DNA of 64,000 bases from Arenibacter arenosicollis (GTDB taxonomy: Bacteria; Bacteroidota; Bacteroidia; Flavobacteriales; Flavobacteriaceae). The stretch is from NCBI RefSeq assembly GCF_014397245.1, contig NZ_JACLHY010000002.1, forward strand, positions 1-64,000, read 5' to 3'. The position numbers were made by a program, and so were the translations under genes. Positions 3,755 through 56,612 of the stretch are shown in pieces. The notes under the pieces are model-generated. The model searched no databases. It was not told the origin of the DNA and saw only the letters and a list, made by a program, of their open reading frames with translations. Position 1 is the first letter of the stretch, and every line of letters begins with the position of its first letter.

Positions 3755-3826
3755 ATTTTTTGGCTTTACGTATTGACACAATTTTAAGGTCGAAATCAAC
3801 ACACCAAAATTTCAAAATAACCTTAG

Positions 3827-3898: not shown

Positions 3899-3921
3899 AT
3901 TAAATCGCATAATTGCGGATG

Positions 3922-3951: not shown

Positions 3952-3978
3952 GACCTAAATAAAATTTTTTAAAATCTT

Positions 3979-5454: not shown

Positions 5455-5508
5455 ACTAGTAAGTTTGGCACAAAACTTGCGACCTTATATTTAAATGAAA
5501 TAGTTCGG

Positions 5509-5539
5509 CAAAACTAACTATTTTTACAATGTTCAACAA
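5509..5539 (-). promoter_or_regulatory. proS promoter
   Basis: The minus strand reads TAGTTTTG (5509-5516) with TTG elements 17 or 20 nt upstream (5534-5536 or 5537-5539). It lies 55 nt before the proS start in the divergent spacer. Confidence 0.5.
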
Positions 5540-5553
5540 TTAAATTTACAGCG

Positions 5554-38870: not shown

Positions 38871-39839
38871 TTATTCAGCTCTTTGCCAAGCTTCTTTAAG
38901 GAATTTCAAGTCTTTTTTCATTTGAGCAAAAACGACTTTTTTATCTATGGTTATCTTAGTCGCACCGTGTTCTGCACCACCTAGGTCATACTCAAGATGA
39001 AGGGATATTGGCACGTTGATTTTATATTTCTTAAGCAATGCAAAGTAGCGATCAAAATCTACCATGCCCTCCCCTAGCATAGTATTTATTGGTTTCCATT
39101 GTCCGTTGACGGTGCCCCATTTAAAATCTTTGATGACGATAGATTTAATAAAAGGTCTGATGAGTCGCAACCCCAGTTCCCATGAACTGCCCCCTTCCAC
39201 TACGGCATGCCTTATATCGTATTGACAACCCATATGTACATTTTTGGTTGCTTCCAGAATGGGTGGCAAATCCCAAATGGGCGCTCCTACATGGTTCCCA
39301 GCATGATTTTGATAACAGCCGATAAGTCCCAGATTCTTATTAAACACCTCCAAATTTCTAAACTGTTGGCCATAGATGGTCTGACTTTCCGAAATTTCCC
39401 TATTCTCAGGATAGGTCAACCATCCAGTGCGATAATGGGAAAGTCCCAACTTACTGGCTGTTTCCAATACAGTTCTTTGTTCCTTATTTTCAACATCAAG
39501 AACGTTTGTGGTCATCATCTTAGGATTCAGACCATATTTTTTCATGGCAGCAACTGCCTTGGGCAAATCATCAGCTACTTTCTCAGGCAACACGTGCCCT
39601 TGGGGTCTTACCGTCAAATCCAATCCGTCAAAACCCATTTCCGCCGCCGCTTCGGACATATCATTATAGTCCAGAAATTGAAGATGCTTTGAAAACAAAT
39701 TTACTTCCAAGGAATTCTTAAAAGGCGTAATAGAATTGAACATTGCTTTATCAAATGCCATCAGCGGTAGGGCAGCTCCCGCCATTGTTGCAAGTTTCAT
39801 AAAATTCCGTCTATCATAATTTGAAATATTCTTCTTCAT
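38871..39839 (-). CDS. exported TIM-barrel sugar isomerase/epimerase-like protein
   Basis: This 322-aa protein has a twin-arginine-type leader (YDRRNFMKLATMAGAALPLMAF). A xylose-isomerase-like TIM barrel follows (MGFDGLDLTVRPQGHVLPE, YQNHAGNHVGAPIWDL, MGCQYDIRHAVVEGG, SLHLEYDLGGAEHG) with Glu/His/Asp metal ligands. It probably acts in the periplasm on a sugar or sugar acid; the substrate is unknown. It is divergent from the PL6 lyase gene. The shared spacer holds a GntR-type operator and a -7 box for this gene (39899-39906), so it is likely in the same regulon. Confidence 0.85.
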   Translation of the reverse strand: MKKNISNYDRRNFMKLATMAGAALPLMAFDKAMFNSITPFKNSLEVNLFSKHLQFLDYNDMSEAAAEMGFDGLDLTVRPQGHVLPEKVADDLPKAVAAMKKYGLNPKMMTTNVLDVENKEQRTVLETASKLGLSHYRTGWLTYPENREISESQTIYGQQFRNLEVFNKNLGLIGCYQNHAGNHVGAPIWDLPPILEATKNVHMGCQYDIRHAVVEGGSSWELGLRLIRPFIKSIVIKDFKWGTVNGQWKPINTMLGEGMVDFDRYFALLKKYKINVPISLHLEYDLGGAEHGATKITIDKKVVFAQMKKDLKFLKEAWQRAE

Positions 39840-39885: not shown

Positions 39886-39916
39886 TTTGTTAGTCTTACA
39901 AATATACGTATTTTTG
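39886..39916 (+). promoter_or_regulatory. promoter of the PL6 lyase gene
   Basis: TTTG (39886-39889), exactly 19 nt, TATTTTTG (39909-39916). The -7 box runs into the operator at 39914. Confidence 0.75.
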
Positions 39917-39925
39917 GTAAACCAA
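39899..39925 (-). promoter_or_regulatory. divergent promoter of the TIM-barrel/RraA operon
   Basis: The minus strand has TATATTTG (39899-39906) with a TTG 16 nt upstream (39923-39925) lying inside the operator. Confidence 0.45.
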
Positions 39926-39940
39926 TCTGGTTAACCAATT
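39914..39940. promoter_or_regulatory. putative GntR-family operator, site a (TIM barrel/PL6)
   Basis: TTGGTAAACC-AATCT-GGTTAACCAATT: two 8-bp half-palindromic units 5 nt apart. The same bases occur at 44092-44118. The core resembles the uronate-regulator operator TTGGTATACCAA of E. coli UxuR/ExuR (established knowledge). It overlaps the -7 box of the PL6 promoter. Confidence 0.75.
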
Positions 39941-39976
39941 TATAATTGGAAGTTGTTCCTAAAAAATCTATTAATT

Positions 39977-42286
39977 ATGAGGAGAATAGTAACGTTACTG
40001 TACATTTTATTTATTCTAAGCGCTTGTGCAGACAAGATCAATCTGAATACCAGAATGGTTAACACTCCGGAAGAATTGGAAGTAGCTATAAAAAATGCAG
40101 AGGCTGGGGACAACATTGTGCTGGCGAATGGTATATGGAAAGATGTCCGAATTAAATTTATAGGTGAAGGCACGGAAGACCAGCCTATTACAATTAAAGC
40201 TGAAACACCTGGAAAAGTTGTTATTGAAGGAGTGTCCGATTTAAAATTTGGAGGGAAGTACTTAGTGGTCGATGGACTGCACTTCAGAAATGGTTATTCG
40301 CCAAGTGAAGCAGTTTTGGAATTTAGAATAGACGAAAAAACTATAGGAAATCACTGTACTATTACCAATTCCATTATTGAGGATTTTAATAAAATGCATC
40401 GTGATGATACGGATCTCTGGGTTCAATTCTGGGGAAGACATAATACGCTAAGCAACAGTTATATTGCCGGAAAAACCAATCGCGGACCAACAATTAGGGT
40501 GGACTTAGAGGGCAATGAGAGCATAAATAATTACCATCAAATCCTTAATAACCATTTTGGACCAAGACCCCCCAAAGGTGGTGCTAGCGGTGAGACCATT
40601 CAAATTGGCAATAGCTTTTCTTCAATGTCTCCAAGTTATACAATGGTTGCCAATAATTTATTTGAAGCCTGTAATGGCGAAGTTGAAATTATTTCCAGTA
40701 AAACCAATTTCAATGAGTTTAGAAATAATGTCTTCTATAAAAGCGAAGGTTCTTTGGTAACAAGACACGGTAACTATTGCACTATTGATGGTAATTACTT
40801 TATTGGAGATGGTAAAAATGAAAACATAGGAGGTATCAGAATTATCAATACAGGACATTGGGTGACCAACAATTACTTCTTCAATATAAAAGGAAAGAAC
40901 TTTAGAAGTGCATTGGCCGTAATGAACGGAATTCCAAAATCACCTTTAAACAGATACAATCAAGTTACAGATGTAGTGGTCGCTTACAATACCTACATAA
41001 ATTGCGATTCCCCCTGGCAATTCGGAGTTGGTCAAAATTTAAACCAAGAAGACGTTTTGCCTCCCTCGGAAATTCGTTCGGCAAGACCCATAAGGACAAT
41101 AATTGCCAACAACGTAATTTACAATGAAAAAGGTGATGCTTCCCCAATTATTGAACACGATAAGGCAGATGGTGTAACTTTTAAAAGCAACGTCATCAAT
41201 AATCAAGGGGTGGATTTTAAAGCCTATGAAGGATTGGAGGCTGTTAATTTTGGCATTGAAGAAATTGGAAAAAATATTCTTATCCCCTCATCCAAGATAG
41301 ATATTGAACCTTACCAAGGCTTCGAATTTGAAAATATATCGACAGATTTAGTTGGAAATCCTAGGACTGACAACAATTCTATTGGAGCATTCACAAATAC
41401 CGATTTTAAAGACCCGAATATTTTGGATAGATCCAAATATGGTCCAAGTTGGTATTCAGCCGAAGCAGAAGAAAAAGAACCTAAGACCTTAATTGTTTCT
41501 AAGGCAGAAATTCTTCAATCCAAAATTGACGAAGCTGAAAACGGAGATATCATTTCGCTGGAAGTAGGAAATTATGAAATCCAGAAATCCTTGCTAATTA
41601 ATAAAAGGTTGACCATTCAATCCGCTGATAAGTCAAAAGTTGTGCTAAATTATTCTGGAGGAGAAAATTCACCTCTTTTTGAACTGCAACCTAAAGGGTT
41701 TTTAAATCTGAAAAACGTGACCTTAAAAGGAAATAATTCCCAATATGCATTCGCTAGTTTAAATGAAAATATGTTTACACATTTTGGGTTAACGGTTGCC
41801 GATTGTGACATCAGTGATTTTAACTATGTCTTAAAGGTATATAAAGAGTCCTTTGCAGAACGTATCACCTTTGAAAATACTTCAATATCAAATTGTGATA
41901 ATGGTCTGGAACTATCAGAAGAAACTAACGATCTAGGAGATTATAACACTGAATACCTAACGATACATAATTGCCGGTTCTCCAATGTAAAAAGTAATGT
42001 GATCGACTACTATCGTGGAGGTTATGACGAATCTACCATTGGTGGGAATCTGCTGGTCACCAATAGCACCTTCACCAATTGCGGAGCTCAGGAAAAAAAT
42101 GGAATTCTGATTAACTCCCACGGCATTGTAAATGTCGATATTTCCAATAATACCTTTAAAAGCAATCCGGTAAAACTGGTGGCTTTACTTTGGGGAGCTA
42201 AAAACAATTCACATTCGGACAATCAGATCAACAATTCCGGAGAAATCAGGGTTGAGGAGAATTTAGAAATGAAATTACTGTACTAA
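39977..42286 (+). CDS. PL6-family polysaccharide lyase lipoprotein, probably alginate lyase
   Basis: This 769-aa lipoprotein (lipobox LSAC at about residue 17) should cleave uronic-acid chains by beta-elimination at the cell surface or in the periplasm. The first right-handed beta-helix (about 25-400) has the PL6 start VNTPEELEVAIKNAEAGDNIVLANG and the catalytic pair Lys242 (EIISSKTN) and Arg263 (VTRHGNY), 21 residues apart as in characterised PL6 enzymes. A second, smaller beta-helix follows (about 490-765), as in two-domain PL6 lyases. The start at 39977 gives the lipoprotein signal and replaces a start eight codons upstream. PL6 also includes chondroitinase B, but PL7, KdgF and SusCD nearby favour alginate. 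Confidence 0.92.
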   Translation: MRRIVTLLYILFILSACADKINLNTRMVNTPEELEVAIKNAEAGDNIVLANGIWKDVRIKFIGEGTEDQPITIKAETPGKVVIEGVSDLKFGGKYLVVDGLHFRNGYSPSEAVLEFRIDEKTIGNHCTITNSIIEDFNKMHRDDTDLWVQFWGRHNTLSNSYIAGKTNRGPTIRVDLEGNESINNYHQILNNHFGPRPPKGGASGETIQIGNSFSSMSPSYTMVANNLFEACNGEVEIISSKTNFNEFRNNVFYKSEGSLVTRHGNYCTIDGNYFIGDGKNENIGGIRIINTGHWVTNNYFFNIKGKNFRSALAVMNGIPKSPLNRYNQVTDVVVAYNTYINCDSPWQFGVGQNLNQEDVLPPSEIRSARPIRTIIANNVIYNEKGDASPIIEHDKADGVTFKSNVINNQGVDFKAYEGLEAVNFGIEEIGKNILIPSSKIDIEPYQGFEFENISTDLVGNPRTDNNSIGAFTNTDFKDPNILDRSKYGPSWYSAEAEEKEPKTLIVSKAEILQSKIDEAENGDIISLEVGNYEIQKSLLINKRLTIQSADKSKVVLNYSGGENSPLFELQPKGFLNLKNVTLKGNNSQYAFASLNENMFTHFGLTVADCDISDFNYVLKVYKESFAERITFENTSISNCDNGLELSEETNDLGDYNTEYLTIHNCRFSNVKSNVIDYYRGGYDESTIGGNLLVTNSTFTNCGAQEKNGILINSHGIVNVDISNNTFKSNPVKLVALLWGAKNNSHSDNQINNSGEIRVEENLEMKLLY

Positions 42287-42455
42287 ACCCATTTCCCTAT
42301 CAATAATAGGCCGCTTAGCATACATTATATCCAATGTTTCAAATTGAAAGGAATGAAACAATAATAAAAACCTAATAAATTATTAGTTGAAGTATCAAAG
42401 CCTATAGAAAATTGAGTTTTGAATCAAAAATAAAATTGAATCCAAACTATAAAAA

Positions 42456-42588
42456 CTGAATAAAAAAATTATCACCTCAGTAGCAATGTTCGTAGTCCTT
42501 TGTCTTTTCCTAATATTTAACAGCTGCAAGTAAATCTGTAAGTGACGAGGCCGTGTCGAATGAAGGCTATTTCACTAAAAATGATTAA
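42456..42588 (+). pseudogene. remnant of a PL7-type lyase gene (signal peptide plus leader segment)
   Basis: Codons from 42456 read (L)NKKIITSVAMFVVLCLF, ending FNSCK and then a stop: a lipoprotein signal whose start codon is now CTG. After a +1 shift, 42535-42588 reads SVSDEAVSNEGYFTKND then stop. This matches the inter-domain leader of the intact PL7 protein downstream (SDDAISNAGYFEAND) at 10 of 15 positions. The rest of the 323-bp gap (42287-42609) is A+T rich with nothing recognisable. Confidence 0.7.
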
Positions 42589-42609
42589 ATAAATTAATGT
42601 AGAAAAAAA

Positions 42610-43380
42610 ATGAAAAACAATAACAAAATAGCTGGCAAAAATGTTCTCATAACTGCTGGTGCTCAAGGAATTGGAGAATCAATTACCAGACACTTTATCA
42701 ACAGTGGAGCTAATGTAGCCATCCACTATTTTTCCAGTGCAGATACAGCCAACCAATTGGTTGAATACGCGACCAGCAAAGGGCAAAAAGCGGTTACTAT
42801 AGCTGGTGACCTAACAAACGAAGCCGATGCAAATGCAATGGTCGAAAAAATAATAGAAGCATTTGGTGGACTAGACATACTGATCAATAACGCAGGTTCA
42901 CTTGTAGCGCGTAAAATGCTTAGCGAAATGGAGGCTGAGTTTTGGCACAAGGTAATGGATATTAACCTTACATCCATGATGTTTGTAACGCGAGCCGCAG
43001 CTCCTTACCTAGCAAAAAATGACAACAGTAGTATTGTTAATTTGGCATCGCTAGCTGGGCGCAAAGGTGGGCACCCAGGGTCATTAGCTTACTCTACCAG
43101 CAAAGGTGCTATTTTAACATTCACGCGTGCACTGTCCGCAGAATTAGGACCTCAAGGCACTCGAGTTAACGCGGTCGCGCCAGGGCTTATTCTGGGTACT
43201 TCATTTCACAACACCCATACAACAAAAGAATCAGCGGATGCCACAACAGCAGGTATTCCGATTCAACGAGCAGGGAACGCAGCTGACGTAGCACGAGCAG
43301 TTTTGTATTTGGCATCAGAATACGATGGCTTTATTACTGGAGCTACACTAGACATTAACGGCGGCGTTTACAATATGTAG
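42610..43380 (+). CDS. short-chain dehydrogenase/reductase
   Basis: This 256-aa NAD(P)-dependent oxidoreductase is of the FabG-like type. The cofactor motif is TAGAQGIG (a variant of TGxxxGxG), with NNAG, catalytic Ser in NLASLAGR and the YxxxK motif in AYSTSKGA. The substrate is unknown: a 4-deoxy uronate such as DEH, or a sugar in an L-fucose-type oxidative route, is possible because a FucU-like gene follows. Seven of eight Arg codons are CGN, against none of nine in the other SDR of this locus, which indicates recent transfer. The start lies 21 nt after the PL7 remnant. Confidence 0.9.
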   Translation: MKNNNKIAGKNVLITAGAQGIGESITRHFINSGANVAIHYFSSADTANQLVEYATSKGQKAVTIAGDLTNEADANAMVEKIIEAFGGLDILINNAGSLVARKMLSEMEAEFWHKVMDINLTSMMFVTRAAAPYLAKNDNSSIVNLASLAGRKGGHPGSLAYSTSKGAILTFTRALSAELGPQGTRVNAVAPGLILGTSFHNTHTTKESADATTAGIPIQRAGNAADVARAVLYLASEYDGFITGATLDINGGVYNM

Positions 43381-43483
43381 TTCTCTGTTGAATCATATAT
43401 AATTGATTTTTATAAAAAAGAAAACACTAGGTATTATTTGGCTATTTGTGGTTATTATTCACCCATTTTTTTAAAATAATATT

Positions 43484-43918
43484 ATGCTAAAAACACCGAT
43501 AATACACCCAACAATCATGGAGGTGCTTGCGCGTTCAGGTCATTTTGCACAAGTTGTCATTGCAGACGGAAATTTGCCAGTCGGTGCTATGAATGGCCCT
43601 AACTCGACGACCGTACACCTCAACTTTCGTCCAGGACTATTGGATGCTCTCACAGTACTTGAAGGCATACTGGAAGTCTGCCCTGTTCAAGGTGCAATCG
43701 TTATGGAAAAGCCTGTTGAAGCAAATGCAGAAATACATGATGCCTATAAAAAATTACTGGGTGAAGTATCGTGGATCGAGATGGAACGATGGGCTTTCTA
43801 CGACAAAATCAGAGAACCTGCCACCACTTTAATTATTCAAACAGGTGAACAGCGCCGATTCGCTAATTTGATACTAACAGTCGGTGTCGTAAAAATGGCT
43901 GAAGAAAGCGGATTTTAA
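43484..43918 (+). CDS. RbsD/FucU-family sugar mutarotase
   Basis: This 144-aa cytoplasmic protein of the family interconverts sugar anomers (L-fucose mutarotase or D-ribose pyranase). The active-site segment is ARSGHFAQVVIADGNLPV with the catalytic His, followed by EVCPVQGAIVMEKPV and IIQTGEQRRFANLILTVGV. The exact sugar cannot be told. Five of six Arg codons are CGN, as in the SDR upstream, so the two genes look like one transferred unit. Confidence 0.88.
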   Translation: MLKTPIIHPTIMEVLARSGHFAQVVIADGNLPVGAMNGPNSTTVHLNFRPGLLDALTVLEGILEVCPVQGAIVMEKPVEANAEIHDAYKKLLGEVSWIEMERWAFYDKIREPATTLIIQTGEQRRFANLILTVGVVKMAEESGF

Positions 43919-44058
43919 GAAGTAAGTATCTTATTTATAAATTCCTTTTTAAGTCCCCTAATACAACATTCGCCCGAAGTAAAATTTACGTTTACCGAAT
44001 TATTGATTTTACCCGCGTTTTATTATTAATTAGGGATAAAATAGGTCGATTAAATGTT

Positions 44059-44083
44059 AAATATTTGGTGGTTCCAAATATTT
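44059..44083. repeat. inverted repeat upstream of the PL7 gene
   Basis: AAATATTTGG (44059-44068) and CCAAATATTT (44074-44083) are perfect inverted arms around TGGTT. The left arm contains the -33 TTTG of the promoter, so it could be a second regulator site. Between 43919 and 44280 the only recognised elements are this repeat, the promoter and operator b. Confidence 0.6.
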
Positions 44084-44094
44084 GCGTATTTTTG
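44064..44094 (+). promoter_or_regulatory. promoter of the PL7 lyase gene
   Basis: TTTG (44064-44067), exactly 19 nt, TATTTTTG (44087-44094). Layout and flanks align without gaps to the PL6 promoter. Confidence 0.72.
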
Positions 44095-44120
44095 GTAAAC
44101 CAATCTGGTTAACCAATTTT
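44092..44120. promoter_or_regulatory. putative GntR-family operator, site b (PL7)
   Basis: GGTAAACC-AATCT-GGTTAACC is identical to site a and overlaps the -7 box in the same way. This supports repression by steric block. Confidence 0.75.
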
Positions 44121-44280
44121 ACAAATATATTTTCGCTTTGTTTATTAGTGGCTTTCGTTATCGTAGAATTGCAGGTAAAACCATCTCGTAAAACGTTTGA
44201 TTAAGATTGTGAAGAAATTATCCTAGCCGTTAAAAAAATTGACTTTATACGGTTTTTATAGTAAACATAACCCATATAAT

Positions 44281-46335
44281 ATGAACTTTAAAGTATTCAA
44301 CTCGGTTTCTGTACATTATTTATTCATGATAAGTACCATTTTTCTATTTATTGGCTGTACAGAAAAAAAGAAACAAAAATCTACAGACAAAACTGAAAAT
44401 GTAGCGATAGGTCGTAGTGCAAACGACATCATACCATTTTTTCAACATTGGAATTTGATCTTAGGTGATGGTTCCAATGTAGGCAAGGCTATTGGTTATG
44501 AGAACAAAAATTTCTTTTTTACTGCCAGTGATGACCATGGCGATTGGGTCGTATTCAAAGCTCCAAATGCAGGAAATACCCATGGTACTTCGCATAATAC
44601 AAGAACGGAATTGGCCCAATTAAAGAAGTGGTCACCAATGACCGAAGCTAAAATGAAAGCTACTCTAAAGGTAATGAACGTGTCAACTACGGGCGATGCG
44701 CACGTTGCTTCGACATATTCAGTAGTGGTTGGTCAGATTCACAGTGCAGATGGGCACGAGAATGAACCGCTTAAAATATTTTATAAGAAATTTCCTGGCC
44801 ATAAAAAAGGTTCTATCTTTTGGCATTACGAAATCAATACGGCAGGTGATGATAATTCAAAAAGATGGGATTATTCCACTCCTGTTTGGGGCTATGACTT
44901 TTCTGTTGTTGGTACTGATGAAGATACCTATCCCCCAGAACCTGAAGATGGGATTACTTTAGGGGAAGAGTTCAGTTATGAAGTGGAAGTTAAGGATGGC
45001 ATGATGCATCTAACATTCACTAGTGATGGGCATGAGACCAAAACATTCACTAAAAATCTTATTTCGTCTGAATTTGCAAATCGCTCAGACATGCCCGAGC
45101 AAGTCAAGAATTTATTCGTACCCATAGGTCAGGATGGCCTCGAGCGTAAAGAAGGGTATGCCGGTGAGGGCCTCTTTTTTAAATTGGGCACGTACAACCA
45201 AACGAACGGAAAAGACCCTAAGGTTAATAAAGTTTGGTGTTCTGGTGCCGAAACCCATGGTGGTGATATACAAAAACAATATGCAGATGGCAATTACGCG
45301 GAGGTTTGGTTTAAGTCAGCAGAAATCACCATCAGCGATGATGCCATTTCGAATGCAGGTTATTTCGAAGCGAATGATGGCTTAAGTACTAAGACGGTTT
45401 ATCCAAATGAGGTGATTCCTTTTATGGATAAATTTAAAATAATGTTGGGTGACGGTACGGAGGTGGAAGATATCACCGAGTTCGAACACAAAGATTTCTT
45501 CTACACTGTGATTGACGGGACAAGACGATGGGTAGTCTACAAAACTCCAAATTCTGGTGTTACTTCAAAAAACTCCAGTAATACAAGAACCGAACTACAC
45601 GAAAAAAGAGAATGGCTCCCTAAAGAAGGTGGTAAACTAACAGGTACCTGCAAGGTAATGCAGGTCTCCATTTCAGGCGATGCCAGAGTTGCTGCCTCTT
45701 ATTCAACTGTTGTCGGGCAAATTCACAGTGGTGAAGGACATGAAAATGAACCACTAAAAATATTCTACAAGAAATTTCCTGGTCACACTAAAGGTTCCGT
45801 CTTTTGGAATTATGAAATCAATCCAGTTGGTGATGACAATTCGGGCAGGTGGGAATATTCCAATGCTGTTTGGGGGCACGATATGTCTGTCATTGGAAAA
45901 GGTAAAAACGACTATCCCGCTGAGCCTAAAAATGGAATAGAATTGGGTGAAGAATTCAGTTATGAAGTAAATGTTTATAAGGGAATCATGTATCTAACCT
46001 TCAAAAGTGAAGATCACGAAACTAAAACATTTACCAAAAATCTAATCTCATCTGAATATGTAAAAAAATCAGACTTTCCTGTACAGATGAAGAATTTATT
46101 TGTCCCCATAGGGCAAGATGCGACTGAACGTGCCACTGCTTATAGCGGAGAGTTGAATTATTTTAAACAAGGCGCGTACAACCAGACCAATGGAAAAAGT
46201 CCAGAAACCAACATGGTTTGGTTTGCAGGTGCGGAAACCTATGGAGGTGATATCGCCAAACAATATGAAAATGGCTGTTATACGGAAGTATGGTTTAGGG
46301 AAGCAACAGTAGGTAAGGGTACACCACCAAAATAA
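44281..46335 (+). CDS. tandem-domain PL7 alginate lyase lipoprotein
   Basis: This 684-aa lipoprotein (lipobox IGC at about residue 26) has two complete PL7 beta-jelly-roll domains. Domain 1 (about 45-345) carries RTEL 108-111, QIH 152-154 and FFKLGTYNQ 299-307. Domain 2 (about 370-675) carries RTEL 436-439, QIH 480-482 and YFKQGAYNQ 627-635. Each motif recurs exactly 328 residues later, and long stretches such as GHENEPLKIFYKKFPGH are identical. PL7 enzymes cleave alginate by beta-elimination. The start at 44281 gives the lipoprotein signal; the upstream in-frame start does not. kdgF follows 51 nt later. Confidence 0.9.
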   Translation: MNFKVFNSVSVHYLFMISTIFLFIGCTEKKKQKSTDKTENVAIGRSANDIIPFFQHWNLILGDGSNVGKAIGYENKNFFFTASDDHGDWVVFKAPNAGNTHGTSHNTRTELAQLKKWSPMTEAKMKATLKVMNVSTTGDAHVASTYSVVVGQIHSADGHENEPLKIFYKKFPGHKKGSIFWHYEINTAGDDNSKRWDYSTPVWGYDFSVVGTDEDTYPPEPEDGITLGEEFSYEVEVKDGMMHLTFTSDGHETKTFTKNLISSEFANRSDMPEQVKNLFVPIGQDGLERKEGYAGEGLFFKLGTYNQTNGKDPKVNKVWCSGAETHGGDIQKQYADGNYAEVWFKSAEITISDDAISNAGYFEANDGLSTKTVYPNEVIPFMDKFKIMLGDGTEVEDITEFEHKDFFYTVIDGTRRWVVYKTPNSGVTSKNSSNTRTELHEKREWLPKEGGKLTGTCKVMQVSISGDARVAASYSTVVGQIHSGEGHENEPLKIFYKKFPGHTKGSVFWNYEINPVGDDNSGRWEYSNAVWGHDMSVIGKGKNDYPAEPKNGIELGEEFSYEVNVYKGIMYLTFKSEDHETKTFTKNLISSEYVKKSDFPVQMKNLFVPIGQDATERATAYSGELNYFKQGAYNQTNGKSPETNMVWFAGAETYGGDIAKQYENGCYTEVWFREATVGKGTPPK

Positions 46336-46386
46336 ATGGAATTGATTCATATAAAAGAGTAAAGACATATTAAAATCATAAAAAAA

Positions 46387-46764
46387 ATGAAAAGATTTAG
46401 TGAAAAGTACATCATCTCAAAAGAAATGAAATGGGAAGAACTTGGAGGAGGAGTATCAAGAAAGTTTTTAGGTTACGATAACCAAATCATGATGGTAAAA
46501 GTGAAATTTGAAAAAGAGGCATTAGGTTCCCCACACCAACATTTTCACACACAAGCTACCTATTGTGTTTCAGGTAAATTCGAATTTGAAATTAATGGAG
46601 AAAAGAAAATTGTAGAAGCAGGAGATGGAGTTTATATTGAACCTAATCTGTTGCATAGTGCAGTTTGTTTGGAAGAAGGGATACTAATTGACACGTTTAG
46701 TCCTGTAAGGGAAGATTTCTTAAGCGGTGGAGGGGTATCTTATTTTGGAGATAAGCAGTCATAA
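46387..46764 (+). CDS. kdgF: KdgF-like cupin (unsaturated uronate linearisation)
   Basis: This 125-aa single-domain cupin has metal ligands His50, His52, Gln56 and His90 (PHQHFHTQATY, EPNLLH). KdgF opens the ring of the unsaturated monouronate released by lyases, giving DEH (4-deoxy-L-erythro-5-hexoseulose uronate). No signal peptide, so cytoplasmic. It follows the PL7 gene and fits its place in the alginate pathway. Assignment rests on motif and context. Confidence 0.85.
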   Translation: MKRFSEKYIISKEMKWEELGGGVSRKFLGYDNQIMMVKVKFEKEALGSPHQHFHTQATYCVSGKFEFEINGEKKIVEAGDGVYIEPNLLHSAVCLEEGILIDTFSPVREDFLSGGGVSYFGDKQS

Positions 46765-46973
46765 TAAAAAAAACTGCCCTTTTCAGGAAGACAAAAAATA
46801 CGAAGTGCTTAGACTTATAAAGGAAGCGATATCACGGGCGGACTTGCCTTTTCCTAGGCATCAGAGAGTCACCAAAGGCCTATAAACAGGAATCTAATCG
46901 CCTCATTTTCAAGCGAAACAACCCTCCAAATGTTAAATTTTAATTTGTTCTTTTTTTTAAGGAATAAATAACA

Positions 46974-47016
46974 TATATTTGGTAAACCAAACTGGTTAAC
47001 CAATTTGGTTTACCAG
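46974..47016 (+). promoter_or_regulatory. susCD leader promoter with triple GntR operator, site c
   Basis: TATATTTG (46974-46981) is a -7 box. From 46979 three units follow, GGTAAACC, GGTTAACC and GGTTTACC, each 5 nt apart; the outer two are inverses of each other. The nearest TTTG (46944-46947) is 26 nt upstream, too far for a good -33. The spacer from kdgF (46765) to susC (47323) also holds the leader ORF, hairpin and palindrome listed separately. Confidence 0.72.
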
Positions 47017-47038
47017 TAAAAAAATAACAATACCAGCC

Positions 47039-47080
47039 ATGTTAAAAGAAAAATATTTGAAAATAGACCATAAGATTTGA
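47039..47080 (+). CDS. 13-codon leader open reading frame
   Basis: ATG-initiated frame MLKEKYLKIDHKI then TGA. It starts 22 nt after operator c and ends 2 nt before a GC-rich hairpin. It could be a leader peptide or the stump of a deleted gene. Its size alone gives no proof of translation. Confidence 0.3.
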   Translation: MLKEKYLKIDHKI

Positions 47081-47082
47081 CA

Positions 47083-47114
47083 AAAAAAAGGACGGGTGCA
47101 CACCCATCCTTTTG
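47083..47114. terminator. GC-rich terminator hairpin in the susC leader
   Basis: The stem GGACGGGT/ACCCATCC (one mismatch) is extended by A/T pairs. On the plus strand the following T run is four long, and on the minus strand eight. It could attenuate transcription from operator c into susC, or mark an old gene end. Confidence 0.55.
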
Positions 47115-47278
47115 TAAAAAGTTTACTTCATTCTGAAGGGAAGTAATAACCTAGACATGTAATAATTTATTATAACACGCCTACTGCAAAGATAAAAAAA
47201 TACATTGACTTGTATACAGATTGCGTGATTTAGTAAATAGTGGGAAAAATGTGAATGCACAAGCACATTTAAAATCTG

Positions 47279-47295
47279 ATTTCGATAATCGAAAT
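47279..47295. promoter_or_regulatory. perfect 17-nt palindrome before susC
   Basis: ATTTCGAT-A-ATCGAAAT lies 28 nt before the susC start codon. It may be a regulator site or an RNA hairpin in the leader. Confidence 0.45.
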
Positions 47296-47323
47296 TGACA
47301 ATTCTAACTCAATACAAACACCA

Positions 47324-50300
47324 ATGAATTTAAAAAAGAAACTCATTTTAGGAGCATTACTGCTCGTTAATGTTGCCCTGTTCGCCCAAGATGGCTTTAT
47401 GCTTTCCGGAACGGTAACGGACGCTGCAAACGTCCCAGTGCCAGGAGTAAATGTTATTATTGCCAAAACTACTACAGGAACAGCAACAGACTTTGATGGA
47501 AATTACCAAATTGAGGTAAAAAACGGGGATGTACTACAGTTCTCGTCTTTGGGTTTTGTAACCCAATCGATTCCAATTACAAACCAAAAACAACTGAATA
47601 TCATCTTACAAGAAGATGCAAGCCAACTTGATGAGGTTGTTGTAGTTGGATATGGTACTATAAAAAAATCACATCTTACCGGAGCGGTAGCAAAAGTAGG
47701 AGGAGATGAGGTTGCTGCTGTTCAAGTGGCCCGTGTGGATGATGCCCTGGCGGGTAAATTGTCTGGAGTAAGAATTCAAAATCAAAGCGGAGAACCCGGT
47801 GCGGATCCAAAGATTCAAATAAGGGCCGCTTCATCTGTTTCAGGTGACTCAGGGCCGTTAATTGTTGTGGATGGCTATCCGATTTCAGGTAATTTAGCAA
47901 CCGTTAACCCAAACGATATAGAAAGTTTAGAAGTATTAAAAGATGCTGCTTCAGCTGCTATTTATGGTTCTTTGGGTGCAAATGGTGTTATTTTGGTAAC
48001 CACCAAAAAAGGAAAAGCAGGAAAGGTCAATTTTAATTACAATTCATATACAAGCACTTCAAGCAAGTATGTAAAGGACATTGAAATGCTTAAGACTGCA
48101 GGGGAATGGGCCAGTGAGTTACAAACTGATGCTTATGATCTTTCCGAAACCGACCCAGGTTTATTGGCTTACAGACTAGATGCATTCGCTAATGCTCCTG
48201 ATGTAGTAAGTATAGAAGATTGGCTATTCAAAAATGGTAGTTCAACTAGCCACGATTTCAGCGTGAGCGGAGGGTCTGAAAATATAAAAGCTTTTGCCTC
48301 CCTTGGTTATTTGAACACTGAAGGTATAGTAAAAGGGCAAGGTTATGAAAGATATAACGGACGTATGAATCTAGATGCCAACTTGGGTACCAAATTAAAG
48401 GCCGGCTTGAGTATGAATGGATATTATGGCAAACAAGATATTGTACCTTGGGAAATGAGAGATCTTTTGAGATCATATAGTATAAGTCCTATATACCATA
48501 CGCAAGCCTCAATAGATTTCGTTCAACAGTTGGATCAAAAAAGACAGGCATTATTTAATTCCGGATTTACTGGAAATAACATAGGTAGATCATTTGACCA
48601 AGATTATAGAGGTATAGGTCTGGATCCTACAAGTATCTATGATTTGCAACCAGGTGATGTAGTACACGATTGGCAATACGGTAGAAACCAAAACGGTATT
48701 GGAGGAACAGGAGATGCAGGTGTAGCGGCGAAGTTTGATAATTCCCAAAGATGGAAAAAGACATATTTTGGGAACGTGAGTTCTTATTTACAATATGAAA
48801 TCATAGAGGGTTTAAATATAAAAACCGTTTTCGGAGCAGATCTTGAAGACACACAGACCTACGAATATCATGGAATATTGTCTGATGGCCAACAACGTTC
48901 CAATCAAACAGAGTTGGATATATCCAATATAAAAAAATCTACCGTTCTAAGTACAACCACTTTAAATTATGCAAAAGTGTTTGCTGATAAGCACGACATT
49001 TCCGCTGTGGCTGGAATGGAGTTTGTTAATACCTATTATAAGGGAATTGTAAACAATGGATCCAACGTGCCATTTGGTCTGCCTTTAAATTATGATTTTT
49101 TTGACCCCGCAGATGTGATTACCAACGAGATAGATGAGACCCAGTCGAGAAATGGTTTTTTTGGAAGAATTGCCTACGCCTTTGATGATCGTTATCTATT
49201 ATCGGCATCCATTAGAAGGGATGGTGATTCACGATTTGGAGCCAATGAAAAATACGCAGTATTCCCTGCACTATCCTTAGGCTGGAATATTCATAATGAA
49301 TCTTTTTTCGGAAATGCCGATGCGTTTAGCCTATTTAAACTTAGGTTTAGTACCGGGTCTTTAGGAACCGCTTCTTTCTTAGGTTCATACAACTCATTAA
49401 GCATTTTGGGTACCTCGCCGACCGCTTTCGGGACAGGATTTCTAATTCCTGAGGATATAGCAAACCCAGATTTAACTTGGCAAACCAATAAAGAGACAAA
49501 CTACGGTGTTGATACAGGGTTTATAAATAACCGTTTTAGATTGAGTGTAGATTACTATACGTCCGATGTTCAAGACATGTTGATCAATCAAAGTGTTTCT
49601 GAAGTTCTTGGGACACCTGCTATAAAACTTAATCGCGGTGATGTGACCAGTTCCGGTTTGGAGTTTGAACTTAATACAAAAATAATTACAGAACAAAACT
49701 TCTCTTGGAATATCAACGCCAATTTATCAACTGCTAAATCAGAAATTACCAATCTAGGTGAATTGACCGAACTGCCCAGGCAAATTTACGGTGGACCGAG
49801 TGGTAGAGGTCCTGAGTTTAGAAACTATGTAGGAGGTGAAATTGGTGAAATGTGGGGGTATGAAGTAACCGGAGAGGTTGAAACTATACATATGTCTGAT
49901 CCTTCTAGAGGCGTTGGATTTGGTGCCGGAGAATGGTATGTTGTAGATCAAAACGGTGACGGTGAAATTACCTATGAAGGAGATTATGTGAAGTTGGGAT
50001 CCGCAACACCGGATTTCTATTGGGGACTTTCTAGTTCCATGAACATAAAGAATTTTGATTTTTCGTTCCAGTTCCAAGGATCTCAAGGTGCAGAACTTTA
50101 CAATATTGACCCCATCTACTGGAAATCACAATTTGGCGGTAGATTAAAATCCAGTTTTGACGCCAATAATGACGGTATTGCCGATGCCAGTGGCAAGTTT
50201 TATCAGGAGACCAGAAATGCACATGGTTCGGGGATTCAAGATGCTTCCTTTACCGCTTTAAGAAACATAACCTTAGGGTATACCCTTAATCCTGATTTAA

Positions 50301-50506
50301 CGGATAAAATTGGCATAGGTTCTATGAGGGTATATGTTGCAGCTACCAATTTATTGTACATAATGGCAGATAATTATACCTCATTTAACCCCGAAGGTGT
50401 AGAGATCGAAAATTCAGGCTATGCGGGTCCAACCACCTACGGATACCAAGAAGGTGCGAGCCCAATTGTAAGAAGTTTTACTTTGGGTGTAAATGTTAAT
50501 TTTTAA
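47324..50506 (+). CDS. SusC/RagA-family TonB-dependent outer-membrane transporter
   Basis: This 1060-aa protein imports oligosaccharides with its SusD partner. It has a signal peptide (about 1-21, FAQ). A carboxypeptidase-like N-terminal extension (about 25-105: SGTVTDAANVPVPGVNVII) is followed by the plug domain (about 115-235: VVVGYGTIKKSHLTGAV, LEVLKDAASAAIYGSLGANGVILVTTKKG) and a 22-strand-type barrel to the terminal Phe (FTLGVNVNF). It is upstream of SusD by 10 nt. Given the lyases and KdgF, alginate oligomers are the expected cargo. Confidence 0.96.
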   Translation: MNLKKKLILGALLLVNVALFAQDGFMLSGTVTDAANVPVPGVNVIIAKTTTGTATDFDGNYQIEVKNGDVLQFSSLGFVTQSIPITNQKQLNIILQEDASQLDEVVVVGYGTIKKSHLTGAVAKVGGDEVAAVQVARVDDALAGKLSGVRIQNQSGEPGADPKIQIRAASSVSGDSGPLIVVDGYPISGNLATVNPNDIESLEVLKDAASAAIYGSLGANGVILVTTKKGKAGKVNFNYNSYTSTSSKYVKDIEMLKTAGEWASELQTDAYDLSETDPGLLAYRLDAFANAPDVVSIEDWLFKNGSSTSHDFSVSGGSENIKAFASLGYLNTEGIVKGQGYERYNGRMNLDANLGTKLKAGLSMNGYYGKQDIVPWEMRDLLRSYSISPIYHTQASIDFVQQLDQKRQALFNSGFTGNNIGRSFDQDYRGIGLDPTSIYDLQPGDVVHDWQYGRNQNGIGGTGDAGVAAKFDNSQRWKKTYFGNVSSYLQYEIIEGLNIKTVFGADLEDTQTYEYHGILSDGQQRSNQTELDISNIKKSTVLSTTTLNYAKVFADKHDISAVAGMEFVNTYYKGIVNNGSNVPFGLPLNYDFFDPADVITNEIDETQSRNGFFGRIAYAFDDRYLLSASIRRDGDSRFGANEKYAVFPALSLGWNIHNESFFGNADAFSLFKLRFSTGSLGTASFLGSYNSLSILGTSPTAFGTGFLIPEDIANPDLTWQTNKETNYGVDTGFINNRFRLSVDYYTSDVQDMLINQSVSEVLGTPAIKLNRGDVTSSGLEFELNTKIITEQNFSWNINANLSTAKSEITNLGELTELPRQIYGGPSGRGPEFRNYVGGEIGEMWGYEVTGEVETIHMSDPSRGVGFGAGEWYVVDQNGDGEITYEGDYVKLGSATPDFYWGLSSSMNIKNFDFSFQFQGSQGAELYNIDPIYWKSQFGGRLKSSFDANNDGIADASGKFYQETRNAHGSGIQDASFTALRNITLGYTLNPDLTDKIGIGSMRVYVAATNLLYIMADNYTSFNPEGVEIENSGYAGPTTYGYQEGASPIVRSFTLGVNVNF

Positions 50507-50516
50507 TAAAGAAATC

Positions 50517-51851
50517 ATGAAAAAAATGAAATCTATATATTTAGTAATAGTATCCTTGTTGTTAGTAGCAGCATGTGATAACGACCTGGATCAAACGCCA
50601 CCTTTGTTACTTGAATCCAGTGGTTTGGAGGAATTTGGACCCGTTTTAAATGCGGCGTATTACTATCAGACCGGTGGTTCAACACCTCTAGGTGCGATGG
50701 GCGACTTTAGAGCTGACAATATGTTGATGCTGGAAAGCCCATATACGGCATTTGACACCTACAATGCAGATTTAGCTGGTCTGGATTTGGTAGAGCAATT
50801 TTTTCGACCCTTCTACAGCAATTTGTACAAGGCAATCTTAAGTGCCAATAATGTCATTGAAAATTCAACGAAGCCCACTGAGATAGCTGAGGCCAAATTT
50901 TTAAGAGCATTGTCCTACTTTAAATTGGTGATGGTTTTTGGTGATGTCACTGTGAATTTATCTCCTTCGCCCAGCCCATCGGATTTGTCCATTTTAAAAA
51001 GACATCCGGCCGCCGATGTGTACAACAACGTAATCATTCCAGACTTTCAAGCGGCAATAGCAGTTTTAGACAATTCTGGATTGGCAAGTGGGCGAGCTTC
51101 CAAAATTGCGGCTCAGGGTTTTCTAGGAAAAGTATATCTGTATAGAGGTAATTTTTCTGAAGCTGCAACAATGCTTGGAGCTGTTGTAAGCGGTGCTGCT
51201 GCAGCAGGGATTAGTTTGGAAAGCGACTTTGCCAACGTAGTAGTCGACGGTAATTCAGAAATCCTTTTTGCAACCCAATTATCAACTTCAGTTCCAAACG
51301 CATATGGATCGGCCACCACGTTTGTAGGATGGTTTACCGGGGCAGACACAAAAGCCCTTACGCCTTTAGATCCACGCTTAATTGCCGCTTTTGACGCCAG
51401 TAGTGCTGGTGGTGGAGGTACGGATTTAAGAAAGGCGCTTACCATTGATACGGATAATATGAATGGAAGTAAGAAATATACTGGAGCTCTGGAACAGGAC
51501 TATATAGAACTGAGGTTATCCGATGTTATTCTAATGTACGCAGAAGCACTTAATGAAAATAGCGCTCCTGCATCAACTGTGCTTCCCTTATTAGATCCCA
51601 TAAGAACCAGAGCGGGATTAACTAGTTTAACTGGAACAGTAAGTTCACAAGCTGACGTTAGACAAGCAATTGCAAATGAAAGAAGAGTGGAGTTGGCCCT
51701 TGAAGGACATAGATGGTTTGATTTGGTGAGAACGGGTACCGTAGATGTGGAAATGGGGGAAACGATAAGCAGCAATTATAATGTGTTTCCTATACCAAAC
51801 TCAGAAATTCTTGCGAGTGATGGAATAATTACACAAAATGATGGTTACTAA
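50517..51851 (+). CDS. SusD/RagB-family glycan-binding lipoprotein
   Basis: This 444-aa surface lipoprotein (lipobox VAAC at about residue 19) caps the SusC channel. TPR-like helices (KAILSANNVIENS, AEAKFLRALSYFKLVMVFGDV) and the C-terminal RagB region (RLSDVILMYAEALNE, NERRVELALEGHRWFDLVRTG, VFPIPNSEI) identify the family. The start at 50517 is used because it gives the proper signal, overriding the longer frame. It is a little short for SusD proteins, which are often about 500 aa. Confidence 0.95.
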   Translation: MKKMKSIYLVIVSLLLVAACDNDLDQTPPLLLESSGLEEFGPVLNAAYYYQTGGSTPLGAMGDFRADNMLMLESPYTAFDTYNADLAGLDLVEQFFRPFYSNLYKAILSANNVIENSTKPTEIAEAKFLRALSYFKLVMVFGDVTVNLSPSPSPSDLSILKRHPAADVYNNVIIPDFQAAIAVLDNSGLASGRASKIAAQGFLGKVYLYRGNFSEAATMLGAVVSGAAAAGISLESDFANVVVDGNSEILFATQLSTSVPNAYGSATTFVGWFTGADTKALTPLDPRLIAAFDASSAGGGGTDLRKALTIDTDNMNGSKKYTGALEQDYIELRLSDVILMYAEALNENSAPASTVLPLLDPIRTRAGLTSLTGTVSSQADVRQAIANERRVELALEGHRWFDLVRTGTVDVEMGETISSNYNVFPIPNSEILASDGIITQNDGY

Positions 51852-52009
51852 AAATCAGAGAGATTTTAAATACGAGTAGTGATAGTTAGTTTTTTAATTG
51901 GAATTTACCGGCTCAAGGTCTGGCCGGTAAATTTCTTAAAACTGAAATACTTAAACTTATATATTGGAATCGTATACTATTTAAATTTCGTTCAGTTATT
52001 GATTTTATG

Positions 52010-52042
52010 TAGATTTGACTAACCAATTTGGTTAACCAATTT
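52010..52042 (+). promoter_or_regulatory. GntR gene promoter with operator, site d
   Basis: TAGATTTG (52010-52017) is a -7 box. It runs into CTAACC-AATTT-GGTTAACCAATTT (52019-52042). The central GGTTAACC matches sites a-c. It sits 18 nt before the regulator start, which implies autoregulation. Confidence 0.72.
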
Positions 52043-52060: not shown

Positions 52061-52768
52061 ATGAAAATAGAAATTATCCCCAAAAACGAAAGCGACACAA
52101 TACAGAAAGAGATTATTTCCAAAATCAGGGATTATATTAATTACAAGAACCTGGAGCCTGGAGACAAATTACCCTCGGAAAGAAAACTTTCTGAAAAATT
52201 TGAGGTGAGTCGGGGCAATGTAAGGGAAGCTATTGAGACCTTGGTGTTTTATGGACTCCTAATATCAAAGCCGCAAAGCGGTACTTTTATTGCCGATATC
52301 GGTCCCGTAGCAATGAATGGTATGATCTCGGATATTTTGAGGCTGGAAAAATCCGATTTCAAATCATTGGTAGAGACAAGGATACTATTGGAATTGAAAA
52401 CGGTAAGGTTGGCAGCAATGAGAAGGACCAAAGAAGATTTGAAACAAATAGAGGAGGCTTTGGAGGCCTATGCCGAAAAGGTAAAAAATGGGGAAGATGC
52501 CGTACAGGAAGATTTATTGTTCCACTTGGCCATAGCCAAGGCATGTGGCAATAGTACCATAAATACATTTATGTTGATTATAACTCCAGAGATCATCACC
52601 AATTTCACCAAATATCATGTTTGTGATAAGAATATTGCATTTATCGGCATACAAGAACATAGGGATATTTATGAGGCCATAAAAAAACAGGACCCTCAAT
52701 TGGCCAAGGAAAAAATGAAAATTCATTTTAAAATGTTATACCAATATTGTTACAACATTAATGATTAA
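52061..52768 (+). CDS. FadR-type GntR transcriptional regulator of the alginate locus
   Basis: This 235-aa regulator has an N-terminal winged helix (about 12-75: EIISKIRDYINYKNLEPGDKLPSERKLSEKFEVSRGNVREAIETL). An FCD ligand-binding domain (about 100-225) has the usual metal-site pattern (LLFHLAIA, EHRDIYEAI, HFKML). Members bound to uronate loci usually repress until a pathway intermediate such as KDG or DEH binds. The start at 52061 was chosen because the TTG at 52028 falls inside the operator. It is followed by the MFS and SDR genes in the same orientation. Confidence 0.92.
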   Translation: MKIEIIPKNESDTIQKEIISKIRDYINYKNLEPGDKLPSERKLSEKFEVSRGNVREAIETLVFYGLLISKPQSGTFIADIGPVAMNGMISDILRLEKSDFKSLVETRILLELKTVRLAAMRRTKEDLKQIEEALEAYAEKVKNGEDAVQEDLLFHLAIAKACGNSTINTFMLIITPEIITNFTKYHVCDKNIAFIGIQEHRDIYEAIKKQDPQLAKEKMKIHFKMLYQYCYNIND

Positions 52769-53006: not shown

Positions 53007-54290
53007 ATGAAAATTAAAGGATTACGTTGGTTCATTATCGGTCTTATCTTTTTAGCAACTGTTATTAATTATATAGACAGAAGTGCTCTTTCCATTATGT
53101 GGGGTAATGAAAATGTTGAAGGTTCTATATCGCATTCATTGGGCTTAACCAAAGATCACTACAGCTATATATTAAACATTTTCATGGTAGCGTATGCCTT
53201 GGGACAATTATTCTCAGGTAAATTATTCGACAAAGTTGGTACTAGGATTGGATATGTAATAAGCATAGGTATTTGGAGTTTATCTACTTTATTACACTCA
53301 ACCGTTAGAGGTTTTTTATCATTGGCCTTTTTTAGAACAACTTTAGGTTTATCCGAAGCAGGAAACTGGCCAGGTGCCGTTAAAAGTAACGCAGAATGGT
53401 TTCCGATAAAGGAACGTGCCATAGCCCAAGGGTTGTTTAATGCCGGTGCTTCAATTGGATCTGTTATAGCGCCACCGTTAATAGCCCTCCTTTTTGTGGC
53501 CTATGGTTGGGAGGTTACGTTTATAATCGTAGGAGCCATTGGACTTTTGTGGATTATTCCTTGGCTTTTAATTAATAAGGCAGGGCCAAAAAAGCATCCC
53601 TGGATAACAGAAGAAGAGCAAAAATTTATTTCTGAAGGACAAAGTATCGCCGATCAAAATGCCACTGAAGACCAAAAAGGACTTAGCCTTAAAGAAATAC
53701 TTTCCCATAAGGAATCTTGGGCCATTGTTGCAAGTAGATTTTTCTTAGAACCTATCTGGTGGCTATTTGTAGGCTGGATGCCCATATATTTATTTGATGT
53801 GTATGGCTTTAATGTAAAAGAAGTGGGAATGTTTGCTTGGGTTCCCTACGTAGGTGCAGCTATTGGGAGTATTGCGGGCGGCTATGTTTCTGGAGTCATT
53901 ATTTCAAAAACCAATTCAATAAATAAAGGTAGGAAAACCACTATTTTCATAGGTGGAATCATTATGGTGCTGGGTCTAATTGCAACAATCTTATTTGCGG
54001 ACACACCAGAAAAATTCGTAGCGATCGTATTCATAGTTTTATTCGGATTTCAATTTGCCATTGGTAATATCCAAACACTGCCAAGCGACTTTTTTAGCGG
54101 TAAATCTGTAGGGTCACTGGCTGGTTTAGGTGGGATGGTTGGTGTATTTTCTGTAATTATTATGAACTTTTTAGTTCCCGTAATTGCAAAGGTTTCATAC
54201 ACACCAATCTTTATAGCCATAGCCATTTTTGTTCCGCTAGGAATAGGATCTATCTATTATTTCGCAAAAAATATAAAATCAGTAGAATAA
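53007..54290 (+). CDS. MFS transporter of the hexuronate/anion-cation symporter type
   Basis: This 427-aa inner-membrane protein has about 12 hydrophobic segments. The first loop has INYIDRSALSIM and the A-motif-like GKLFDKVGTRIG, typical of the ExuT/ACS family. GLSEAGNWPGAVKSNAEWFP matches the family substrate-path signature. It probably imports DEH or unsaturated uronates, as its neighbours suggest. The downstream SDR starts 30 nt after its stop, so they form an operon. Confidence 0.92.
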   Translation: MKIKGLRWFIIGLIFLATVINYIDRSALSIMWGNENVEGSISHSLGLTKDHYSYILNIFMVAYALGQLFSGKLFDKVGTRIGYVISIGIWSLSTLLHSTVRGFLSLAFFRTTLGLSEAGNWPGAVKSNAEWFPIKERAIAQGLFNAGASIGSVIAPPLIALLFVAYGWEVTFIIVGAIGLLWIIPWLLINKAGPKKHPWITEEEQKFISEGQSIADQNATEDQKGLSLKEILSHKESWAIVASRFFLEPIWWLFVGWMPIYLFDVYGFNVKEVGMFAWVPYVGAAIGSIAGGYVSGVIISKTNSINKGRKTTIFIGGIIMVLGLIATILFADTPEKFVAIVFIVLFGFQFAIGNIQTLPSDFFSGKSVGSLAGLGGMVGVFSVIIMNFLVPVIAKVSYTPIFIAIAIFVPLGIGSIYYFAKNIKSVE

Positions 54291-54320
54291 TTTAAACAAA
54301 ATATAATAACAATTAGAGAT

Positions 54321-55085: not shown

Positions 55086-55381
55086 AGAAAGAATAAATGG
55101 GAATGATTGCCTCCAAGTTTCATGATGATTTAACAAACATCTAAGTGGCTGCCGCCCCTCCTATTAAGATATGGCAGTGCAACGGAAGTTGTAGACTTGG
55201 AAGCATAGCTTGATTCTGATAAGGTTTCATTCCCGACATTAAGCAATAATGATAATAATGATGGGCTAGTATTTAGCCAACACTTAACTCATTAAACAGA
55301 TTAAAAAGGGTAGTATCAATTTTAATAAATTGTGGGGTGAAAATGGCTCTGTAATTCAAGTGATGTTCTAAAAAGATAAAA

Positions 55382-56605: not shown

Positions 56606-56612
56606 AAAGCGA

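Follow-up and report, generated by a model that had tools for sequence, protein, structure and literature searches.

Promoter-docked operator arrays point to an AusR-type alginate regulon with a probable antisense RNA layer in Arenibacter arenosicollis

Alginate is a main polymer of brown seaweeds and flavobacteria are among its consumers; the switch that governs its use matters for marine carbon flow and for seaweed processing. We analysed the first 64,000 nucleotides (nt) of contig NZ_JACLHY010000002.1 of Arenibacter arenosicollis (assembly GCF_014397245.1), hereafter the window, which contain, within a 5.4-Mb genome, an alginate locus of the Arenibacter type, as labelled by the Pfam matches of its open reading frames (ORFs). 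The closest described system is the AusR regulon of Zobellia galactanivorans, reportedly the subject of Dudek et al. 2020 (Nucleic Acids Research, NAR). In published summaries, AusR is a GntR repressor of most Zobellia alginate genes, acts at single, double or triple operators and stops binding DNA in the presence of alginate degradation products (PMC7874173, PMC8286568, PMC8073546). One of these summaries words the outcome as ‘enhancing transcriptional inhibition’ (PMC7874173), which we take as a slip because another says that expression is triggered (PMC8286568). The window resembles the system thus summarized in having a GntR-family regulator within an alginate locus and single, double or triple operators at promoters; its four operator sites hold two, two, three, and one plus one decayed copy, which is the AusR-type range. 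Unlike the Zobellia AusR locus, it combines a lyase of polysaccharide lyase family 6 (PL6) with a tandem PL7 lyase, and neither a PL17 nor a PKD protein was seen among the window ORFs examined. The likeness to AusR is drawn from published descriptions and not from its sequence, and no Zobellia record is among the 71 related loci that we retrieved. A literature search on flavobacterial GntR alginate operator palindromes found no papers. Taken together, our analysis makes it very probable that the window encodes an AusR-type alginate regulon with a probable second layer of control by RNA; the operator circuit appears to be of the AusR kind, and a predicted antisense RNA would set it apart as a variant.

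Two other regulators offer a comparison. Like the regulator of the window, Escherichia coli NanR is a GntR/FCD repressor, and according to the published account three of its dimers bind cooperatively to a repeated operator, (GGTATA)3 (PMC8012715). The NanR repeats are described as direct half-sites, whereas the units of the window are full palindromes every 13 bp. UxuR operators are FadR-subfamily palindromes with a GT-AC distance of 2 nt, as here, and 3 nt are given for ExuR (PMC4494728); this bears out a preliminary description of the same DNA, made from its letters alone, which had likened the core to the UxuR/ExuR operator. UxuR, however, is described as a hexuronate regulator of Gammaproteobacteria with weaker extra half-sites 7-12 nt from the centre (PMC4494728), and the extra elements of the window are full palindromes.

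By description only, the predicted RNA gene of about 102 nt, antisense to a susC homologue, resembles the DonS RNAs of Bacteroides in its layout. These are said to have been described by Cao et al. 2016. The family is summarized as 78-128-nt cis-antisense RNAs against susC homologues of Bacteroides glycan loci (PMC7366714), and a flavobacterial transcriptome paper names DonS-type RNAs as a model for similar flavobacterial studies (PMC9723704). Unlike them, the RNA predicted here belongs to the Flavobacteriaceae and to an alginate locus, and lies downstream of AusR-type operators. We know of no flavobacterial relative of the DonS RNAs, although the literature was not searched for antisense RNAs in alginate loci.

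The preliminary description had proposed four GntR operator sites, a to d, overlapping or touching TAnnTTTG boxes. Direct reading of the letters confirmed all four sites and the tie of each to such a box. Each site is a tandem array of GGTWWACC palindromes with a step of 13 bp:

39909-39936, plus strand: site a, box TATTTTTG (39909-39916) fused to a two-unit operator (GGTAAACC at 39916-39923, GGTTAACC at 39929-39936), upstream of the PL6 lyase gene
44087-44114, plus strand: site b, box TATTTTTG (44087-44094) fused to a two-unit operator (GGTAAACC at 44094-44101, GGTTAACC at 44107-44114)
46974-47014, plus strand: site c, box TATATTTG (46974-46981) fused to a three-unit operator (GGTAAACC from 46981, GGTTAACC from 46994, GGTTTACC at 47007-47014)
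52010-52037, plus strand: site d, box TAGATTTG (52010-52017) fused to a decayed unit (GACTAACC from 52017), with a perfect unit 13 bp further on (GGTTAACC at 52030-52037)
52061-52768, plus strand: AusR-type GntR/FCD regulator of 235 amino acids (PF00392 and PF07729), between the SusD gene and a gene for a transporter of the major facilitator superfamily (MFS)

The two kinds of unit in the earlier account stand; the third unit of site c had been missed as such, and neither the AusR precedent nor an antisense RNA in the susC leader featured there. Site d does lie directly before the FadR-type regulator gene, whose ORF, read from the ATG at 52061, gives the 235 residues, and the arrays precede the PL6 lyase, the PL7 lyase, the SusC/D pair and the regulator, in line with the predicted cover of import, depolymerisation and regulator genes. 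Read as a whole, the interpretation offered there is partly supported.

At all four sites the flavobacterial sigma-A -7 box TAnnTTTG is present, and its final G is the first base of unit 1. Flavobacterial sigma-A promoters also carry an upstream TTG element near 19 nt, and a TTTG stands 19 nt upstream of the box at sites a and b. Because the -7 box of Flavobacterium psychrophilum is reported at -12 to -5 (PMC9723704), an array of two units would extend from about -7 to +18 and one of three units to +31; the same position predicts a transcription start near 39921 for site a.

A single octamer carries little information. GGTTAACC occurs four times in the window against a mean of 1.25 in shuffled sequence, with 5 of 100 shuffles reaching four, and this count was dropped as evidence for want of clear enrichment. 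The composite GGTWWACCANNYTGGTWWACC, in contrast, matched perfectly in the 5.4-Mb genome at sites a, b and c only (with two overlapping matches at c) and found site d at two mismatches, so that no further perfect array exists outside the alginate locus; the preliminary description had called for such a scan. With up to three mismatches allowed, the composite showed no enrichment in the whole genome (29 forward and 32 reverse matches, against 37 and 39 for a reversed control). A matrix built from array units of related loci gave eight window units scoring at least 14. In 60 random windows with matched dinucleotide composition, of which prefiltered positions only were scored, the mean was 0.27 (maximum 2). 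This matrix was trained on the loci that it scanned, which makes the unit scores there circular; the 13-bp spacing and the box positions are free of this circularity.

The 71 related loci were retrieved with the regulator as query. Of these, 69 were used (Flavobacteriaceae-type records except one Saprospiraceae bin); L078 and L079, from Terrilactibacillus and 35% identical, were left out before all counts. The palindrome GGTWWACC occurs 286 times in their 1.36 Mb. Pairs of units no more than 60 bp apart fall at 13 bp in 57 cases, at 26 bp in 18 and at 45 bp in one, compared with zero pairs in five rounds of random sequence of the same dinucleotide make-up (62.8 units per round). Four control palindromes yielded 21-134 units in the same loci and at most one pair each.

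In the 69 loci the matrix delineated 148 elements, each an array or a single unit. Two were set aside as coding, with non-coding status judged by tblastn labels from the genes of the window, which left 146. In 100 of them TAnnTTTG starts exactly 7 nt before unit 1 and in 14 it starts 20 nt (7 + 13) before, with an average of 0.13 at other offsets. By class of downstream gene, the -7 register is found in 63/65 SusC, 9/9 PL7, 4/4 PL6, 1/1 SusD, 12/15 other and 11/52 regulator arrays. After thinning of similar promoters it was kept in 24 of 28 clusters, and the TA alone would be expected in about 13%. Among these loci the register recurs in many genera. Most structural promoters have two or three units; regulator promoters have a single strong unit in 41 of 52 cases. 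At the latter, TAnnTTT starts at -20 in 26 cases and at -7 in 11, so a common form of regulator promoter looks like a structural promoter whose first unit has been lost or has decayed, as at site d.

Regulator and operator also travel together. Among 249 genomes of the family, the regulator is present in 64 (expectation value, E, of 1e-50 or below). A perfect double operator occurs in 51 genomes, every one of which also has the regulator, and in none of the 185 that lack it (Fisher p = 3e-41, kinship not corrected). Of 18 Arenibacter genomes, the same ten have clustered arrays (allowing up to one mismatch), the predicted antisense RNA and a PL6 orthologue of 85-100% identity; two further genomes have PL6 matches of 26-28% only. 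Beyond the alginate locus, a regulon scattered over the genome was considered and is not supported. The 12-mer TTGGTWWACCAA with one mismatch gave 179 matches in the whole genome, near the 151 of a reversed control. Among the matches listed, three of the four perfect copies off the locus lie inside ORFs, and the fourth, on contig C38, lies 48 nt before an ORF read by eye as a response regulator. Weak two-unit matches at L089 and L091 (13.8 bits) were likewise rejected, being inside ORFs.

Several observations count against the AusR-type reading. Sites c and d have no TTTG at the usual distance upstream of the box. The register is broken in 5 of the 94 non-regulator arrays, and for arrays without a labelled neighbour the strand was picked to favour the box. 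At regulator promoters, 15 of 52 have no TAnnTTT in register, and 13 of the 64 regulator genomes have no perfect double operator. Finally, a lone unit, ATTTGGCTAACCAATT, scores 16.3 bits outside the alginate locus (L153, G000:C76:138000-154000, at 9106-9121). This unit stands between an FCD paralogue (26% identical) and a divergent gene, in what its ORFs suggest is a sialic-acid-type cluster; it possibly reflects cross-talk, or merely the common FadR-type core.

The regulator itself shares 87-94% identity with its counterparts in nine Arenibacter records. Its predicted fold has a mean predicted local distance difference test score (pLDDT) of 83. Solved relatives include 6az6, 9jpj and NanR (6on4), with identities of 24-27% and whole-chain template-modelling (TM) scores of about 0.5, and NanR ranked second in a Foldseek search with the regulator. 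Residues D151, H155, H200 and H222, which we take to be the metal residues of the FCD domain (D-x3-H, H, H motif), are invariant in an alignment of 41 rows and align with the same residues of 6az6 and 9jpj. Because these residues are invariant, a small acid such as 2-keto-3-deoxygluconate (KDG) or 4-deoxy-L-erythro-5-hexoseulose uronate (DEH) would fit as the effector.

The 308-nt stretch between operator c and susC contains a hairpin with flanking A- and T-runs, from which we predict the following features:

47080-47182, minus strand: predicted antisense RNA of about 102 nt, with a 5' hairpin, a hairpin with a C-rich loop (47123-47146) and an intrinsic terminator (47113-47086) with a U-tract
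47187-47194, minus strand: predicted -7 box for the antisense RNA (minus-strand sequence TATCTTTG), from the leader alignment

The start is predicted near 47182, and the terminator ends in a run of eight U, partly within the stem. A terminator-like hairpin is present in 38 of 58 SusC leaders, compared with 2 of 58 after shuffling, and a laxer terminator motif in 47 of 59, the window included. Alignment of the leaders revealed a second hairpin and a conserved CAAAnnTA, which is TAnnTTTG on the minus strand. The exact CAAANNTA occurs 25-50 nt past the middle hairpin in 34 of 48 leaders, with 2.0 expected from shuffles; these shuffles, like those of the terminator count, preserve base counts only. 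The predicted length is 80-120 nt in 45 leaders, again with the window included. For the structural comparison, 38 of the 47 leaders having the terminator motif were kept; near-duplicates were removed, as were leaders that lacked a box 56-95 nt on. RNAalifold gave the terminator hairpin only; the middle hairpin was named by eye and then counted, and the 5' hairpin, which aligned poorly, was left uncounted. Five pairs vary on both sides, in 28 cells against a shuffled mean of 12.2. A covariance model matched on the minus strand in 50 of 70 sources at E < 0.01, namely 37 members of the model, seven near-copies and six others (L021, L035, L037, L053, L058 and L066). In Arenibacter, each of the ten alginate-positive genomes has one match at E of 1e-12 or below, and the best match in the eight others is 3.4e-4; all 18 genomes also have weak matches, at E values up to 0.05, and 150 of about 3,000-5,600 first-look candidates per genome were scored. 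Rfam over 39000-60000 returned three weak matches below cut-off, none of them at the element.

On which strand does this element act? A sense-strand attenuator or riboswitch-like leader is the most serious competitor of an antisense RNA, and we regard it as unlikely, though worth weighing. The element lies within the mRNA leader, two hairpins form on the plus strand as well, a short plus-strand terminator is also listed, and conserved leader hairpins could act on the sense strand. However, 688 of 716 cells are paired on the minus strand compared with 649 on the plus strand, and G-U pairs number 43 against 4; one pair of the stem reads U-G on the minus strand in 31 of 38 sequences, where the plus strand would have a C-A mismatch. 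Folding in the window gives z = -4.2 for the minus and -2.4 for the plus strand, and the minus strand also has the longer U-tract and the conserved -7 box. We favour the minus strand because of the pairing and G-U counts. The antisense assignment nevertheless has its own difficulties. No minus-strand match at E < 0.01 was obtained in 20 of the 70 sources, some of which cover the susC leader barely or not at all; several loci show weak matches on the plus strand that overlap the element (best E 0.0017); two weak matches lie elsewhere in the window; and no TTG element was found upstream of the antisense box at the usual distance.

Based on this analysis, the circuit may work as follows. As its family suggests, the 235-residue GntR/FCD protein would bind the palindromic units TTGGTWWACCAA as a dimer. 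The units repeat every 13 bp from the final G of the -7 box, and a bound array would block RNA polymerase. Regulator promoters, mostly with one strong unit that in half of them sits one step downstream of the box, would be subject to weaker self-repression. An intermediate of alginate breakdown, with DEH and KDG as candidates, would bind the FCD domain and free the DNA, as the FCD family and the published summaries of AusR suggest. From within the susC leader, the minus-strand promoter would yield the antisense RNA of about 102 nt, ending at its own terminator; pairing with leader nt ~95-197, it might eliminate or halt leaky susC transcripts until induction swamps it.

An opposite sign of control is quite improbable in our view. 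The sign is not given by sequence alone, and GntR proteins are able to activate, so that at the arrays the regulator might work as an activator or anti-activator instead of repressing by blocking the promoter. The arrays, however, extend downstream from their start on the -7 box, and protein bound there would stand in the way of the polymerase; moreover, AusR is called a repressor in the published summaries. Another reading, in which the 13-bp repeats came with the alginate locus as promoter-linked sequence and a different factor binds them, is hardly credible. Array and regulator share a locus, so their co-occurrence is partly shared inheritance. In several genomes (e.g. G113, G162, G196), however, there are arrays on a different contig from the regulator gene; 52 of the 146 non-coding arrays stand at the promoter of the regulator itself, and the core agrees with the published FadR-subfamily consensus (PMC4494728).

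A wider generalization falls just on the probable side. Flavobacterial alginate loci would follow a fixed grammar, with 13-bp units counted from the G of the -7 box (two or three at structural promoters, mostly one at the regulator, often one step downstream), and with a family-wide, locus-specific susC antisense RNA that may also act in trans or bind a protein. Such roles are suggested because the hairpin loops are conserved in sequence, which pairing of the RNA with its own leader would not require; within the alginate locus, the longest exact complement to a trans target was 10-11 nt, nothing convincing. A strict register of operator on promoter would allow alginate regulons to be read from sequence across the family. 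If expressed, the antisense RNA would extend a control principle of gut Bacteroides to marine flavobacteria and combine RNA control with a DNA repressor at one promoter.

The genes around the arrays run in the order PL6-type lyase, short-chain dehydrogenase/reductase (SDR), RbsD/FucU, tandem PL7 lyase, cupin, SusC, SusD and GntR/FCD regulator, followed by MFS transporter, SDR, PFK-A-family enzyme, 2-keto-3-deoxy-6-phosphogluconate (KDPG) aldolase, an Nramp-like protein and a sugar-isomerase-domain protein:

39977-42286, plus strand: PL6-type lyase (Pfam Chondroitinase B, which we take to denote PL6)
44281-46335, plus strand: tandem PL7 alginate lyase with two Alginate_lyase2 domains
46387-46764, plus strand: cupin protein (Pfam), possibly KdgF-like by position
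47324-50506, plus strand: SusC-like TonB-dependent transporter (Pfam)
50517-51851, plus strand: SusD-like lipoprotein (weak Pfam matches, under curated cut-offs)
53007-57281, plus strand: MFS transporter, SDR (DEH-reductase-like by position), PFK-A-family enzyme and KDPG aldolase (Pfam)

The SusD start was set by us at the ATG at 50517; the listed ORF begins at 50493. The only two PF08787 matches of the genome are the two domains of the PL7 gene. Among the 25 best operator matches in the window, none lies between the regulator and the transporter at 53007, and at three Hepar_II_III_C genes elsewhere in the genome no unit above 6.4 bits was found in the stretches examined. The PFK-A-family enzyme (55382-56605) sits between the DEH-reductase-like SDR and the KDPG aldolase. 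A PFK-A enzyme is also present there in 17 of 45 loci with a labelled aldolase. In many relatives an ORF of 334-348 residues occupies this slot, alone or beside PFK-A, and four such ORFs that we compared are 37-65% identical to one PfkB of the window genome, on contig C14 (87664). The enzyme as a stand-in KDG kinase is thus left unproven. The stretches examined around the PfkB, a candidate KDG kinase, contain no operator. The circuit had been called complete; arrays do cover import, lyase and regulator genes, and the claim of completeness appears overstated, since this kinase candidate lies on another contig with no operator in the stretches examined and none of the 25 best matches stands between the regulator and the transporter.

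Divergent genes flank site a, for which a shared operator had also been predicted:

39899-39906, minus strand: candidate -7 box for divergent transcription (minus-strand sequence TATATTTG), in 10/10 Arenibacter site-a regions
38871-39839, minus strand: sugar-isomerase-like TIM-barrel gene (Pfam), divergent to the PL6 gene
38129-38854, minus strand: RraA-like gene (Pfam), after the TIM-barrel gene

At 39899-39916 two -7 boxes thus stand back to back, two bases apart, beside operator a, an arrangement seen in 10/10 Arenibacter loci. The TIM-barrel gene lies divergently beside PL6 in all ten loci and RraA in nine. Control of the divergent genes from a shared operator is plausible and is left unproven, because the same minus-strand motif, CAAAnnTA, occurs at the same offset at the PL7 arrays of L010 and L016 with no labelled divergent gene in the stretch covered.

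Behind arrays left unlabelled by the genes of the window, ten ORFs were tested, with the exclusion of entries that extended past a locus, that had a reverse gene only or that repeated another entry (L030): five are PL17-type and two PL7, labels that presumably follow from their Pfam names, one is SusC-like, and two are secreted proteins of unassigned role with a type IX tail. Apart from the type IX sorting tail, the last two (L042, 19040-19960; L048, 18949-19875) have no Pfam match, and their ORFs lie 68-76 nt downstream of a double operator that is itself docked on a -7 box; the secreted protein is a candidate for a new alginate-related protein. Extra arrays also occur near second SusC genes, at 14169 and 14646 in L068 and, in the opposite orientation, at 18608 and 19560 in L075.

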